Shown here in pieces: positions 1,343-6,354 of a DNA stretch of 6,354 bases (within the stretch, counting starts at the first letter, position 1; each line of letters opens with the position of its first letter). This DNA is from Treponema sp. (GTDB taxonomy: Bacteria > Spirochaetota > Spirochaetia > Treponematales > Breznakiellaceae). The notes under the pieces are model-generated. The model worked only from the letters and a program-made list of their open reading frames with translations. It ran no database searches and was not told the DNA's origin. The stretch covers positions 1 through 6,354 of the forward strand of contig JAIRSD010000133.1 in assembly GCA_031255615.1 (NCBI GenBank), read 5' to 3'. The position numbers and the translations under genes were made by a program.

Positions 1343-4300
1343 TTAGCTTTGGGGGACCGGCGCCCAGTTGGTTCCCACGGTGTGGTCCGAGGCGCAGTTT
1401 ACATGCCGCCGGGCGTATTTTCTCAGGTCGATGAGGCGCCAGTGGGTGTCGTTGCCGCCGCCCCGGGCATAGCCGGAGAGGTAGTTGTCATTGTACCTGG
1501 TCCAGTATATTCCCGGAGGTACGGCGAAGGGACCGGCCTGGTTTGTGTAACTGTTCAATAGTCCGCCCCACTCGAAGACCAGGGTCTCTTTGGGTGCGTA
1601 GGGTCCCTGCGAGGCGTTGATCCAGGGGCCCGGCCATTTGTTGTACCATCGCGTATCGGGGCCCGGCGAGGCGCTGGTCCAGGGGGCGTTGTAGATTTGG
1701 TTGAATTCGGCGTCGGACAGGTGGTCTCGCGGTCTGACGGCCATTTCAAAATACACCATGGCGAAGGCGTTGTCATGTTCGGACATGGTTATATTGAAGG
1801 TAACGTAGCCGTTGGGGGTGTCTTTCTCGTTGCCGTGGTTATTAAAGTGGTACTGCCGTTCCTGGCCCGCGACGATGAGCACCTCCCCGCAGTCGTAGCT
1901 GATCAGTTTCTCGCTCAATGTGAGGTTGTCGATAGCAATGCTGTTCTGGTAGTTCGGCCATGGATAGGAACCGGCGACTACGATCAGCTTATAAAAACCG
2001 GGCGCGACGACCGGTATGTTTTTGTTTTGGCCGCGGCCTATCGGACTGTAGGGGGTCGTTCCGTCGAAGGAATAATCCGGATTCGCGCCGTAGTAGTGGT
2101 TTCCCGTGGTCTGATCGATTTGCGCTTTATAAAGATGGTACTTGAAGATCTTTGTGTCCAAATAAGCGGCGGCTCCGACGTTCATGGGGTATGCGTTAAA
2201 GACCCGGATCCCCCCTTCCTGCGTATTGGGATTGGCCACGTTTGATTTATCCGTAATGGTCTCATCGGTGATGGTAACCGCGACAATCCGTTTGCTGCTG
2301 TTGTCAAGGGTGATGATGAACTCCGCCGTAAAGGATTCCATCTTGAATTGCGCCACGTAGGATTGGAAGGGAACCCTGAGGGAGTCGGTTTCTCCGGATA
2401 CCAGGGTGAACGATTCGCGGCGGGCGGTCATCCTGGAGTCGTAAAAGACGGCGGATTGAACGGCCTCGGAAGACTTATTCGTAACCCTTACCATGCCGTA
2501 GCCGTCGGGCAGGTCGGTAATATCCATACCGTCGGTGAAGGTTACGGAAAAGATCTGCCCCGCTTTTATGTTTACCGGAATCGCCCCGGACCACTGCTGT
2601 TTTACCCCGTTGTAGAACCTGGCCGTAGCCGCCCCTACCGGAAGTATGGCGTCGTTGGCGGTTTCCGCTCCGGGGACTAACTGGATGTTTCCCGGAAAAT
2701 TCATCTCCGTGTCCGCCCCGTTGTACTGGTAAGAGAGTTTGGTCAGGATCGTGGCGGAGGAGCCGTTTTTGATGTGGAGGTATCCTTCGTTGCTGCCGAC
2801 GGGGATCGTATTGGCGTCTGTAAGGGGCGGCAGATCCGGCCAAACCGGAGGCCAACTGGAGCTTATCGAGTAGTCCCCGGTATTGTTCTGGTAAAAATAG
2901 AGGACGTAAATGGAACCGGCGGTAAGGGTGAAGGAATTCGCGCCGCTCCCGGCGGGAATCCTCCCCGATCCCCGGTTGTCGGCATAGTATTCCAGATAGT
3001 GGCTCCAACCCCCGGCCCCCAGAAGTATCGACATCTGGTTCGACCGTGAAACGCCGGATATTGAATAATTTTTTGCCGGCGCCGCCGAGGAAAAATTGAC
3101 GGCGTTTATATCGGCGGTTTTCGACAGATTCTTCATCACCACCAGTCCGAGGCTGCCTTTATTGGCATCGGTCAGGGCGCCGGGAGAATCTCCTTCGTTT
3201 CCGCCATCACCGCCGGAATTTGGGCTGTTCCCGTCATACTGGTAGACCGGCGGCGCGTTGATGCCGCCTTCAACGCGGTAGTCGGCGTCTATTTCCCAGG
3301 AATTGTCCCCGTCGTCAAAAAAGGAGAAGTACACGGATGTTCTGATATTCGTAAGACCCACGGGTTTGACGTTCAGATCGTCCAGGGTCTTGCTGCCTGT
3401 CTGACTGCCCCAGGAATAGTCGATGACCACATCCCACACGCCCTTTTCCAGGATTATGGACCGGTTGTTCTGGATGCCGACGGATCCCATTTCCCATTTC
3501 CGGGATTTGTCCAGGTCGTGGGTAAGGGTAATCCTGGTAATCCTGACCCGGGAACTTAAATTTTGAACCGTCAGTACGCCGTAATTATTCCGATGCATAT
3601 CCCACGAAGGGCCGCTGGTATTAATATTCTCGTTCTCGTTGGTGATCTGTCCTTCGCTGCTCATGTCCACGCCGCCGGTGTTTCCGTTGTCAAGGTAATC
3701 GTTGGCGTCGGGTTGGGGAATCCAGCGCGTGTTGTCGGATTCATCGGTCAGGTGGTATGCGCCGTCCGGGGGCGCCGCCTTATAGAAGTAGAGGTGGTTG
3801 ATATAATTCGAAACTCCGGCCTTTACAATGGAAGTGTCGATTACGGCGCCGGAATCGTCGGGGCGGGCGGGATCTATCCAAACGGCCCGGACCCTCCAGA
3901 CTCCCGGATGGAGGATGATGGATTTCCGGTTCCCCTTGTCCGGTCCGGGATTCATTTCCCAGTGCATGTCAAATGTATTGCCGGCGGCGTTGTCGTTCTC
4001 GTAGTGGTCGAATACCAGCTTAAGGAGGGGCATGGTTTTACTTAGGTTATGAACGATAAGGATGCCGTAGTTCTCCCGCATGGTGGGGGGCAGTTTGATC
4101 CGGGGATCATTATCGGCGGACACATCCCCTTCCCGGGGGTTGTTCACAGCGTCGCCGTCCTTGTTGTCATCCAGGTTCTCGTTGTCCTGGTAGTAGTTGT
4201 AGTTGATATCCCCGTAGACATGGCTGGAGTCCATGTTGACGCCCCCCTTGTAGGCCCCGTCTTTTCCCGCATAGAAGTAGACGTATTCCACGCGGCCCCG

Positions 4301-4765
4301 CAGGAGGGCCTTGGTTCCGGCGATGGGGGCCGCGGCATCGTCGAATTTCATGGTAATGTCGTAATGTCCGGGAAGCAGAATCATGGACTTTTCCTGACCG
4401 GCGGACAGGGAGACGTCGGCCTTTATGTCGCTGTGTTCCTGGCCGGTGATGGTATAGGTTACTATCCTGGCCATGGATCCGCCGGTAAGGTTTTTAAAGA
4501 CGATGGCCCCCTTATCGGGATCGGGATGGATGTCCGGCTTGTCGGCGGAGGAGATGTCGCCGGGGTTGGCAGGATCGTTGAGTCCGGGATTAATAACCTC
4601 GCCGGCATCGGATAAAAGATCCGGCACAAAACCAATGGGGTTCAGGCAGGATGAAAAAAAGACGCCCGCGCAAAAAAGAAGGGCGGGCAAGGCCGCGAAG
4701 TTTCCGAAAATTCCCGGACCGGGGGAATACTTGTCCGCCCCGCCGGTGAAATTTCTGGTTTTCAT
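1343..4765 (-). CDS. Large modular surface lipoprotein, unknown function
   Basis: The product is 1140 residues. The start at 4765 was chosen over an ATG 109 codons upstream because GAGGAAA sits 6-8 bases before it and because it begins a signal peptide: basic residues to 12, hydrophobic stretch 19-39, and a permissive lipobox F-S-S-C with Cys40 as the lipidated residue. The mature protein is therefore inferred to be membrane-anchored and exported. It consists of diverged beta-rich modules that begin with G-x-hydrophobic-V-x-N-L-S-like strands at about residues 86 (AIVFKNLTGG), 233 (YGILIVHNLS), 395 (YGVLTVQNLS), 538, 660, 756 and 851. Each continues with an S-I-I-L-x-x-G-V-W-like strand (282, 436, 579) and often a Y-F-Y strand (161, 324, 621). 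Asp/Asn-rich linkers (for example 193-208, 360-382, 484-525) contain DNKDGD-type, possibly Ca-binding sequence. The last 150 residues are Trp/Tyr-rich and differ from the modules. No enzyme motif was seen and the family is not recognised; adhesion or envelope structure is a guess. Confidence 0.9.
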   Translation of the reverse strand: MKTRNFTGGADKYSPGPGIFGNFAALPALLFCAGVFFSSCLNPIGFVPDLLSDAGEVINPGLNDPANPGDISSADKPDIHPDPDKGAIVFKNLTGGSMARIVTYTITGQEHSDIKADVSLSAGQEKSMILLPGHYDITMKFDDAAAPIAGTKALLRGRVEYVYFYAGKDGAYKGGVNMDSSHVYGDINYNYYQDNENLDDNKDGDAVNNPREGDVSADNDPRIKLPPTMRENYGILIVHNLSKTMPLLKLVFDHYENDNAAGNTFDMHWEMNPGPDKGNRKSIILHPGVWRVRAVWIDPARPDDSGAVIDTSIVKAGVSNYINHLYFYKAAPPDGAYHLTDESDNTRWIPQPDANDYLDNGNTGGVDMSSEGQITNENENINTSGPSWDMHRNNYGVLTVQNLSSRVRITRITLTHDLDKSRKWEMGSVGIQNNRSIILEKGVWDVVIDYSWGSQTGSKTLDDLNVKPVGLTNIRTSVYFSFFDDGDNSWEIDADYRVEGGINAPPVYQYDGNSPNSGGDGGNEGDSPGALTDANKGSLGLVVMKNLSKTADINAVNFSSAAPAKNYSISGVSRSNQMSILLGAGGWSHYLEYYADNRGSGRIPAGSGANSFTLTAGSIYVLYFYQNNTGDYSISSSWPPVWPDLPPLTDANTIPVGSNEGYLHIKNGSSATILTKLSYQYNGADTEMNFPGNIQLVPGAETANDAILPVGAATARFYNGVKQQWSGAIPVNIKAGQIFSVTFTDGMDITDLPDGYGMVRVTNKSSEAVQSAVFYDSRMTARRESFTLVSGETDSLRVPFQSYVAQFKMESFTAEFIITLDNSSKRIVAVTITDETITDKSNVANPNTQEGGIRVFNAYPMNVGAAAYLDTKIFKYHLYKAQIDQTTGNHYYGANPDYSFDGTTPYSPIGRGQNKNIPVVAPGFYKLIVVAGSYPWPNYQNSIAIDNLTLSEKLISYDCGEVLIVAGQERQYHFNNHGNEKDTPNGYVTFNITMSEHDNAFAMVYFEMAVRPRDHLSDAEFNQIYNAPWTSASPGPDTRWYNKWPGPWINASQGPYAPKETLVFEWGGLLNSYTNQAGPFAVPPGIYWTRYNDNYLSGYARGGGNDTHWRLIDLRKYARRHVNCASDHTVGTNWAPVPQS

Positions 4766-4770
4766 GTGTG

Positions 4771-4777
4771 TTTCCTC
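4771..4777 (-). promoter_or_regulatory. Ribosome binding site that fixes the lipoprotein start
   Basis: The minus strand reads GAGGAAA followed by ACACAC and then ATG at 4765. This is good Shine-Dalgarno sequence and spacing. The far upstream in-frame ATG at 5092 has none. Confidence 0.75.
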
Positions 4778-4800
4778 ACTGTTTTTGAATGTTTCCGTTT

Positions 4801-4817
4801 GCGGCCTCCCGGGCCGC
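4801..4817 (-). promoter_or_regulatory. GC dyad in the lipoprotein leader
   Basis: GCGGCC (4801-4806) pairs with GGCCGC (4812-4817) around a five-base loop, 35 bases before the lipoprotein start codon. It could fold in the mRNA leader close to the ribosome binding site. Function unknown. Confidence 0.4.
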
Positions 4818-4852
4818 GTCAATACAAACCTTTCCGGCCGCATAATGGACCT

Positions 4853-4879
4853 GTTCAACGACTTGCCTGGTTGTTGAAC
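4853..4879 (-). promoter_or_regulatory. Dyad GTTCAAC-N13-GTTGAAC in lipoprotein leader
   Basis: GTTCAACGAC (4853-4862) pairs with GTTGTTGAAC (4870-4879) over ten positions with one G-T wobble and a seven-base loop. It could be an operator for a dimeric repressor or an RNA hairpin in the leader. It lies directly downstream (minus sense) of the terminator-like hairpin at 4890-4924, so an RNA role in the same leader is plausible but not shown. Confidence 0.45.
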
Positions 4880-4889
4880 GGATCTTATA

Positions 4890-4924
4890 AAAGGCGCGGA
4901 TTCCCCGGGGGAACCCGCGCCTTT
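4890..4924 (-). terminator. Strong terminator-like hairpin inside the lipoprotein leader (possible attenuator)
   Basis: AAAGGCGCGG (4890-4899) pairs with CCGCGCCTTT (4915-4924). After an A/C mismatch the stem continues with TTCC/GGAA (4901-4904 with 4910-4913) around a five-base loop. On the minus strand the stem is followed by TTTTATAA, a fair U-tract. On the plus strand it is followed by TTTCTTCTTTATT, so it may work in both directions. It lies 125 bases before the lipoprotein start and downstream of the best promoter candidate. It could therefore end transcription early unless overridden; alternatively it simply blocks read-through from the repeat array. Confidence 0.6.
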
Positions 4925-4954
4925 CTTCTTTATTAACCGGCCGTTGTCCGAAGG

Positions 4955-4983
4955 TTGAATTTCTCGAACGGTTTTAATATATG
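4955..4983 (+). promoter_or_regulatory. Weak candidate plus-strand promoter
   Basis: TTGAAT (4955-4960), a 17-base spacer and TATATG (4978-4983) each match the sigma-70 consensus at four of six positions. Transcription would begin near 4990 and run toward the terminator-like hairpin at 5072-5109, antisense to the lipoprotein leader. Confidence 0.3.
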
Positions 4984-4999
4984 ATAAATGCTTTTTTTG

Positions 5000-5020
5000 T
5001 TCTATCCCCCCAAGATAGAA
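5000..5020. promoter_or_regulatory. Perfect 7-bp inverted repeat in lipoprotein leader
   Basis: TTCTATC (5000-5006) and GATAGAA (5014-5020) are exact reverse complements around CCCCCAA. It sits between the candidate minus-strand promoter and the attenuator-like hairpin, so it could be a protein-binding dyad or an RNA stem in the leader. Confidence 0.4.
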
Positions 5021-5064
5021 ATTCCGTAGTATTTCTGTGGTGTATATTTTTATCTGTATATAAC

Positions 5065-5092
5065 AGAATACAAAAAGCAGTATCACTGTCAA
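5065..5092 (-). promoter_or_regulatory. Candidate sigma-70 promoter for the lipoprotein gene
   Basis: On the minus strand a perfect -35 box TTGACA (5087-5092) is followed after 16 bases by TATTCT (5065-5070), four of six matches to the -10 consensus. Transcription would start near 5058 and give a leader of roughly 290 bases before the ATG at 4765. A short dyad TCTGT/ACAGA (5053-5067) overlaps the -10 box and start site and might be an operator. Confidence 0.5.
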
Positions 5093-5109
5093 TAGTATTG
5101 CTGCTTTTT
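5072..5109 (+). terminator. Intrinsic-terminator-like hairpin with T-run
   Basis: AAAAAGCAG (5072-5080) pairs with CTGCTTTTT (5101-5109), followed by another T. The loop is about 20 bases with a small ACT/AGT stem inside. The A/T-rich outer stem works on either strand. On the plus strand it could end a short RNA from the promoter at 4955-4983; on the minus strand it could stop read-through from the repeat array. It also encloses the TTGACA box, so it may have more than one role or be partly fortuitous. Confidence 0.4.
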
Positions 5110-5157
5110 TCGTGTTTAACGGGCTGCTGTGCGGGATCTGAATTTTTTTTGGGGGTA

Positions 5158-5330
5158 GTGATGCTTTTGACTGGGGGGCCCGCCGGTGGGGGCGCGGTGT
5201 CTGTCCACCGAAATCGAGGGGGGGCCTTCCTGGGCGGCGGGGCGTACCTTCTCTGCGCTGACGGCGGGGCGGGGAACGGGGCGGCTGGTCGAATCCGGGG
5301 TTTGCCGCTGGAGGCTGACGTTTCGGGGCA
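5158..5330 (+). repeat. Array unit 1 (173 bp)
   Basis: Slot type A (CCACCGAAATCG). It has a CGGTGG/CCACCG stem (5184-5189 with 5205-5210) and the conserved stem GCGGC/GCCGC (5281-5285 with 5304-5308). It lacks the CTTGGGGAC portion of the G-run cluster, which explains most of its shorter length. Confidence 0.85.
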
Positions 5331-5514
5331 GTGATGCTTTTGACCGGGGACCCGCCGGTGGGATGCAGTACACGTCCACCGAAATCGGGGGGGCTTGGGG
5401 ACGGGGGCCTTTCCTACGCGGCAGGCCGTACCTTCTTTACGCCGAGGGCGGGGTGGGTATGGGGCAGATGGTCGAATGCGGGGTTCGCCGCTGGATGCTG
5501 ATTTTTCGGGGACA
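5331..5514 (+). repeat. Array unit 2 (184 bp)
   Basis: Slot type A, with the CGGTGG/CCACCG stem at 5356-5361 and 5376-5381. The conserved 18-base-loop stem is degraded here (GCAGA opposite GCCGC at 5464-5468 and 5487-5491). The G-run cluster at 5387-5407 has enough runs for a quadruplex. Confidence 0.85.
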
Positions 5515-5795
5515 GTGATGCTTTTGGCCGAGGTCCCGCCGGTGGGGCGCGGTGCCTGTCCACTATATGCGGGGGCTTGGGGGCAACCGTTCGGATCCTA
5601 TCCTGATATTGCCGCACCTCATGCTGGGGAACAGCACCGGCAGGGCGCAGCACTTGTCCGCTAAATGCGAGGGGCTGGGGACAGGGGCCTTTCCTGTACG
5701 GCGGGCCTTACCTTCTCCACACTGGCAGCGGGGCGGGGTATGGGGTGACTGTTCGAATACGGGGTTTGCCGCTGGAAGATGATGTTTCGGGGACA
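5515..5795 (+). repeat. Array unit 3 (281 bp) with internal partial duplication
   Basis: About 97 bases longer than its neighbours. The front part of the unit, through GTCCACTATATGCGGGGG, is followed by about 50 bases of unrelated sequence (about 5584-5635). A second, diverged copy of the front part then follows (CACCGGCAGGGCGCAG through GTCCGCTAAATGCGAGG) before the unit continues. The conserved stem is GTGAC/GCCGC (5745-5749 with 5768-5772): four pairs including one wobble, plus one mismatch. Confidence 0.8.
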
Positions 5796-5978
5796 GTGAT
5801 GCTTTTGACTGGGGCCCCGCCGGTGGAGCGCAGGGCCTGTCCACCGAAATCGAGGGGGCTTGGGGACGGGGGCCTTTCCTGCGCAACGGGCCGCCTTTCT
5901 CCACGCCGACAACGGGGCGGGGTATGGGGCGACTAGTCGAATGCGGGGTTTGTCGCTGGAAGATGATGTTTCGGGACA
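5796..5978 (+). repeat. Array unit 4 (183 bp)
   Basis: Slot type A with the CGGTGG/CCACCG stem (5821-5826 with 5841-5846). The conserved stem is GCGAC/GTCGC (5929-5933 with 5952-5956) around an 18-base loop, the A-T version of the pair that is G-C in units 1 and 6. Confidence 0.85.
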
Positions 5979-6162
5979 GTGGTGCTTTTGGCCGGGGCCC
6001 CGCCGGTGGGGCGCGGTCGCTGTCCGCTAAATGCGGGAGGGGCTTGGGGGCAGGGGGCCTTCCTGCGCGGCGGGCCGCCTTTCTCTACGCCGAGGGCGGG
6101 GCGGGGTATGAGGCGACTGTTCGAATCCGGGGTTTGTCGCTGGAAGATGATGTTTCGGGACA
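5979..6162 (+). repeat. Array unit 5 (184 bp)
   Basis: Slot type B (CCGCTAAATGCGG, which can itself fold as CCGC/GCGG). The conserved stem is GCGAC/GTCGC (6113-6117 with 6136-6140). The G-run cluster at 6035-6057 has four G-runs with short loops. Confidence 0.85.
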
Positions 6163-6336
6163 GTGGTGCTTTTGGCCGGGGCCCCGCCGGTGGGGTGCGG
6201 CGCCTGTCCGATAAATGCGGGGGCTTGGGGGCAGGGGGCCTTCCTGGGCGGCGGGCCGCCTTTCTCTACGCCGGCGGCGGGGCGGGGGACGGGGCGGCTG
6301 GTCGAATCCGGGGTTTGCCGCTGGAGGCTGATGTTT
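6163..6336 (+). repeat. Array unit 6 (about 174 bp, last)
   Basis: Slot type B (CCGATAAATGCGG). The conserved stem is GCGGC/GCCGC (6294-6298 with 6317-6321), as in unit 1. Its GATGTTT end motif is followed by TGAGGAGCAATGAG instead of the usual CGGGGACAGTG, marking the likely array edge. Confidence 0.8.
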
Positions 6337-6354
6337 TGAGGAGCAATGAGATCT

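Follow-up and report, generated by a model that had tools for sequence, protein, structure and literature searches.

The question raised by this locus is why the right-hand part of a short spirochaete contig is filled with diverged repeats that stand upstream of a predicted lipoprotein gene. The window, that is, the whole stretch of 6354 bases that was analysed, is nearly the whole of a contig of 6413 bases from a Treponema-like bacterium known from metagenome data. From left to right it holds a gene with helix-turn-helix (HTH) and haemerythrin-like parts, a GC-rich intergenic region, the lipoprotein gene, an AT-richer intergenic region, and the array. The lipoprotein gene (1343-4765, minus strand) is predicted to encode a protein of 1140 amino acids that belongs to a Treponema family and has a lipobox-like sequence, ...FFSSC, when inspected by eye. 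The array starts 393 bp upstream of this gene. In agreement with the preliminary description, which had placed the repeats beside a lipoprotein promoter, a promoter-like site, TTGACA-16-TATTCT, is found on the minus strand at 5092-5065, about 65 bp from the array. It reads away from the array and toward the lipoprotein gene, and no second site of this kind turned up in 4700-6354 (mean of 0.4 in shuffles).

The array, at 5158-6344, is a non-coding tandem array in which six full units and a truncated one follow each other head to tail with a period of 184. The full units are 173-184 bp long and their pairwise identity is 70-88% over aligned letters. A landmark, GTG[AG]TGCTTTTG, occurs at 5158, 5331, 5515, 5796, 5979, and 6163, and the third interval between landmarks, which is 281 nt, holds the truncated copy and then a full copy whose start is degraded. 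All units are on the plus strand. Landmark and profile together define unit 1 (5158-5330, 173 nt), from which some 14 columns are missing in a G-run region of its G-rich middle, unit 2 (5331-5514, 184 nt), unit 4 (5796-5978, 183 nt), unit 5 (5979-6162, 184 nt), and unit 6 (6163-6344, 182 nt). Unit 3b (5612-5795), of full length with its first 30 nt or so degraded, was placed by the profile, and the truncated unit 3a (5515-5611) has about 70 nt of the unit start followed by 25-30 nt that are unmatched. The profile was built from the six full units and unit 3a was left out of the build; it recovers the six full units with E values of 1.8e-43 to 2.4e-55, as it must by construction, and it matches the truncated copy, which is outside the build, at 5516-5585 with an E value of 1.4e-13. 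The fraction of matching bases at a lag of 184 is 0.53 as against at most 0.36 at any lag from 150 to 399 in 200 dinucleotide shuffles. Tandem Repeats Finder (TRF), the check that had been suggested, reports only the better-conserved right part, 5643-6336, with a period of 184 and 85% matches, and again at a period of 365. Landmarks, profile, and autocorrelation thus lead to the same count of full and truncated units. The earlier count of six copies of about 183 bp, too long for a microsatellite, is therefore right for the full units and for the length, since the period is 184 by both TRF and autocorrelation and the head-to-tail units are above microsatellite length, but it missed unit 3a inside the 281-nt interval. 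By eye, both outer edges of the array fall in the TTTCGGGGACA stretch of the unit. Because the right end (TTTTGAGGAGCAATGAGATCT) is, again by eye, still like a unit start, the array may continue beyond the end of the window. An AGGAG-CA-ATG sequence seen by eye at 6339-6348 on the plus strand, with the window stopping 6 bases past the ATG, may be a degraded further unit start or the start of a rightward gene, for which the spacing of 2 is short.

The units have diverged and they are also mosaic. In the alignment 101 of the 189 columns vary or hold a gap, and the biallelic variable columns comprise 54 transitions and 18 transversions with no codon periodicity. When five units were compared there were 24 informative sites, 140 of the 276 pairs of sites were mutually incompatible, and neighbouring sites were more compatible than in permuted orders (PHI-like test, n = 5000, p = 0.0014). 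With all six units, unit 3b included, there were 27 sites, 242 of 351 pairs were incompatible, and p was 0.0004. At the informative sites from 40 to 84 units 5 and 6 agree throughout, and at those from 120 to 186 it is units 1 and 6 that agree throughout. Since the units are mosaic, these results support the conclusion that the copies exchanged segments with one another. In an earlier mosaic test based on identity runs none of the 2000 permutations reached the summed statistic and single pairs were mostly non-significant; this test, which unit 3b with its degraded start might have inflated, gave way to the PHI-like test.

Variation is uneven along the unit (variance in 20-column windows, p = 0.0016, and p = 0.0004 without unit 3b). 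The unevenness, however, is mostly due to stretches where variable columns are dense. For the 20-column window with the highest conservation (147-166), p is 0.017 when unit 3b is included and 0.26 when it is left out; the corresponding values for the longest invariant run are 0.37 and 0.40. Since the conserved stretches are not beyond chance once the damaged unit 3b is omitted, the shared landmarks, among them TCGAATNCGGGGTTNGNCGCTGG, which is common to all six full units, are weak evidence for selection, and exchange between units could be an alternative source of them.

The searches covered here revealed no relative of the unit among proteins, Rfam families, phages or plasmids, which is in keeping with the preliminary description that the family was not recognised. 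When 84,980 species genomes were searched for one exact 20-base pattern there was only a single match, and the lack of relatives is weakly tested in these genomes as they were probed by that one pattern alone. The matching locus (L001), from Gemmatimonadota, with a 35-nt match to the profile, had TRF periods of 6, 9, and 11 only and was judged to be due to chance. Of five patterns searched against viral contigs four had no match and one matched a single locus (L003), which was likewise judged to be due to chance as it had no match to the unit profile. A blastn search against phages and plasmids found nothing, and a literature search, judged partly from titles and the openings of abstracts, found no published statement on this repeat.

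The most likely explanation is that the array is an old, self-shuffling, long-period intergenic minisatellite of a Treponema-like spirochaete, and we consider this reading probable. It starts from a tandem array of mosaic units that keep no frame and carry strand-biased G-runs, and it is the simplest because it covers the tandem order, the truncated copy, the loss in the G-run region, the mosaics, the transition-rich divergence, and the lack of recognised relatives. A non-coding, G-rich segment of about 184 bp upstream of the lipoprotein gene would have been duplicated in tandem, and the number of copies would then have been altered by unequal exchange or replication slippage between them. Growth by unequal exchange is suggested by the mosaic pattern of the units, and the clustered G-runs of the plus strand might perhaps promote such exchange or slippage and thereby changes in copy number. 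The copies would drift, mainly by transitions, while swapping segments, and recombination or slippage commonly leaves behind remnants such as unit 3a and the loss in unit 1. The array would have no essential product, and its effect on the neighbouring promoter, if any, would be passive, by way of spacing, supercoiling or a G-quadruplex. As in a minisatellite, the copies stand head to tail, are longer than those of a microsatellite, and show exchange of segments, and the array is non-coding and lies between genes, of which the left neighbour alone is known, the right one being outside the window. Two findings count against this explanation. The uneven variable columns and the presence of TCGAATNCGGGGTTNGNCGCTGG in six of six full units are what a functional site could also give, and a plus-strand fold of six units in a shifted phase was reached by only 3 of 150 column shuffles. 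Among the closest known systems are the MIRUs and other VNTR loci, and the array is like them in being an intergenic tandem repeat; the MIRUs of Mycobacterium tuberculosis are described as minisatellites that are mostly in intergenic regions (PMC3635867). The array differs from MIRUs in its 184-bp unit, its strongly diverged copies, and its G bias on one strand. MIRU units are shorter than 184 bp. The hallmark of VNTR loci is variation in copy number between strains, and the array is known here from one sequence. If it is only a minisatellite, the array could serve as a typing marker, and it illustrates clearly how non-coding repeats of a metagenome-derived spirochaete exchange segments with each other.

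What makes the array notable is that nearly all its G-runs are on one strand of the DNA. Of the 75 runs of at least three G or C in 5158-6344, 69 are plus-strand G-runs and 6 are on the minus strand (58 and 5 per kb, respectively), whereas the lipoprotein gene has 60 and 55 on its two strands. The array is 42% G and 25% C, and the 69 runs exceed the number in each of 500 single-base shuffles (mean 51.6, maximum 67). The G4Hunter score is 0.76 in the array as against -0.56 to 0.42 in 250-base steps that are wholly outside it. These values, together with the mosaic units and the distance of about 65 bp from the promoter-like site, speak for an element that acts at the level of DNA, in which the G-run array would influence recombination or the lipoprotein promoter in cis, through a G-quadruplex, an R-loop or protein binding. 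A further point in its favour is that G-runs are confined almost to one strand in the vls region of Borrelia as well, where one strand is reported to have 225 G-runs (27 per kb) and its complement a single one, and a role for them in recombination is proposed (PMC3585125). On the other hand, strict four-run G-quadruplex motifs make up 10.5% of the array, and since they average 8.0% (sd 3.7%) in dinucleotide shuffles, they show no excess beyond composition. Such an element is, in our judgement, unlikely. A DNA-level function had been put forward from the retained structure, in itself weak evidence; the strand-biased G-runs lend it some weight. The more specific proposal, that a spirochaete array with strand-biased G-runs is a cis-acting element that drives recombination or tunes lipoprotein expression, as proposed for vls but without a role as donor cassettes, is slightly less likely still. 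If the G-run bias is functional, the array would make it possible to test the proposed role of G-runs in recombination where no coding donor system is involved.

Equally unlikely is a tandem structured RNA read from the plus strand, either as a leader of several units for a gene that lies beyond the right end of the window or as repeated small-RNA genes. Folding of the six units with RNAalifold gave a z score of -1.7 on the plus strand (11 of 200 column shuffles reached the value) and -1.0 on the minus strand (35 of 200). There were 7 pairs that change on both sides on the plus strand against a shuffle value of 3.7 (sd 1.6; reached by 5 of 150) and 3 against 3.3 on the minus strand (reached by 103 of 150). 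Columns 40 and 84 hold G-C in three units and A-U in the other three. When the start of the unit was shifted upstream all six units gave plus-strand z scores of -2.3 and -2.2, each reached by 3 of 150 shuffles, and four units folded in phases 149-175 gave -2.1 to -2.9, reached by 0-1 of 120. Against this, the column shuffles used for consensus folding do not preserve dinucleotides, and single units compared with dinucleotide shuffles gave plus-strand z scores of 0.1, -0.1, 0.9, -3.4, -1.0, and -0.4, that is, chance level except for unit 4, while 27 sliding windows of 120 nt had a mean of +0.14. The lowest consensus values (-3.5 and -3.4) are selected because phases were scanned; they come from four units chosen after that scan, in which 8 of 12 plus-strand phases gave -0.1 to -2.0. 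Folding of four units in other phases on both strands gave +1.0 to -2.4, with only the plus strand below -1. The shifted-phase values also weaken to -1.7 and -1.8 in five units without unit 3b and to -1.5 and -1.1 in five units without unit 5. For the suggested structured RNA array the consensus fold is thus borderline, confined to the plus strand, and dependent on the phase and the units taken. Riboswitch and small-RNA arrays resemble this array in having repeated units close to gene starts, but the units here have no Rfam match (the highest score within the array is 17.8 bits, with a gathering threshold of 42), no consistent fold, and no promoter-like or terminator-like site within them. The best Rfam score over 4766-6354, 24.6 bits against a threshold of 141, lies outside the array. 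The modelled folds give no firm verdict, and on balance we lean against a folded RNA from the array. The sequence TTCGAATCC resembles a T-loop; the idea that it is tRNA-like was rejected when ARAGORN found no gene in the window.

That the array is a decayed protein gene or a mobile element is very improbable. A decayed gene would be in line with the low density of stops and with stop-poor open reading frames of up to 125 amino acids, but no frame is conserved, as the preliminary description had held. The length of the full units, 182-184 nt and 173 in unit 1, is no steady multiple of three. Stops number 10, 6, and 6 in the plus frames against shuffle means of 7.1, 7.0, and 6.6, and 4, 4, and 3 in the minus frames, which were counted without a shuffle control. 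The variable columns are spread over the three codon positions as 24, 25, and 32, of 61 each, with no clear preference. Translated open reading frames of the array matched no Pfam family (five frames) and no NCBIfam family (two frames). For the last two units the plus-strand translation had 149 candidate proteins, none at an E value of 0.1, and the minus-strand translation 46, none at an E value of 1; this negative is weak because such a search covers only frames that someone has called as genes. An insertion sequence, other transposon or MITE was rejected since no pair of inverted repeats of at least 20 nt has both arms inside the array, so that the absence of IS ends is upheld, and since no transposase family was found in the translated frames; there was also no match to phage or plasmid DNA. 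Alignment to a decayed gene or a known transposon had been named as what would overturn the first interpretation, and no protein, Pfam, NCBIfam, phage or plasmid match to the array was found. A CRISPR array, commonly several repeats in a row, was likewise rejected, as had been anticipated, because here the entire 184-nt unit is repeated and there are no short repeats with unique spacers.

Still less probable is that the units serve antigenic variation as silent donor cassettes, like those of the vls system in Borrelia. The setting invites the comparison: a spirochaete, tandem units that are diverged and mosaic, G-runs nearly confined to one strand, and a predicted lipoprotein gene adjoining. 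Between vls cassettes, however, there are direct repeats of 17 bp, and the cassettes themselves are counterparts of the vlsE variable region (PMC3585125), whereas the units of the array keep no frame and have no homology with the lipoprotein gene. The best DNA match between array and gene is 12 nt (E value of 0.5), the best match between array frames and the lipoprotein is 29 residues (E value of 0.2), there are stops in all six frames, and the unit lengths are no steady multiple of three. Since there is neither homology to the lipoprotein nor a kept frame, the array is not a vls donor array for this lipoprotein, and its likeness to vls is one of composition. It is just as improbable that the satellite of another organism was joined to the Treponema contig in a chimeric assembly, for although the period near 180 bp and the composition (G 42%, C 25%) are unlike the rest and the contig has only 6413 bases, the left edge of the array has no visible break by eye and a similarly high GC content is seen in the left part of the window.

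The lipoprotein has at least 25 relatives besides its own copy at an E value of 0.001 among the best 7994 candidates, those sharing most words, that were scored. They are 796-1449 amino acids long, some of them partial, the nine nearest have 54-72% identity, and the seven with the name of a source organism are all from Treponema sp. or a Spirochaetaceae bacterium. The protein has no match in Pfam, NCBIfam or solved structures, and no relative was found in plasmids or in viral contigs, where 19 stretches matched a pattern and none was a relative. Folding of 4766-5064 revealed a hairpin of 17 pairs at 4889-4925 on the minus strand, with a loop of 3 and two G-U pairs, that lies between the promoter-like site and the start codon of the lipoprotein gene, in the presumed 5' leader. 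It is followed by TTTAT on the minus strand and is absent from the list of the terminator scan; it is a candidate attenuator or terminator. The intergenic region that separates the HTH-haemerythrin gene from the end of the lipoprotein gene holds a complete match to the TD-2 RNA (RF03162) at 1085-1176 on the plus strand, with 58.9 bits against a gathering threshold of 48.7. TD-2 RNA was described from Treponema, and together with the named lipoprotein relatives it assigns the contig to a Treponema-like spirochaete. A search for TD-2 had no match in the Gemmatimonadota genome of locus L001 nor in any of 14 control genomes, and so carries no information. The start of the HTH-haemerythrin gene is at 3-689 on the minus strand (HTH_31, E value of 9.9e-7); the score to bacteriohemerythrin is 15.3 bits, below the cut-off of 84, in a domain that is cut by the edge of the window. 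Judging from these domains, the protein is possibly an oxygen- or iron-responsive regulator. An inverted repeat, GTTCAAC...GTTGAAC, seen by eye at 4853-4879 upstream of the lipoprotein start, is operator-like.
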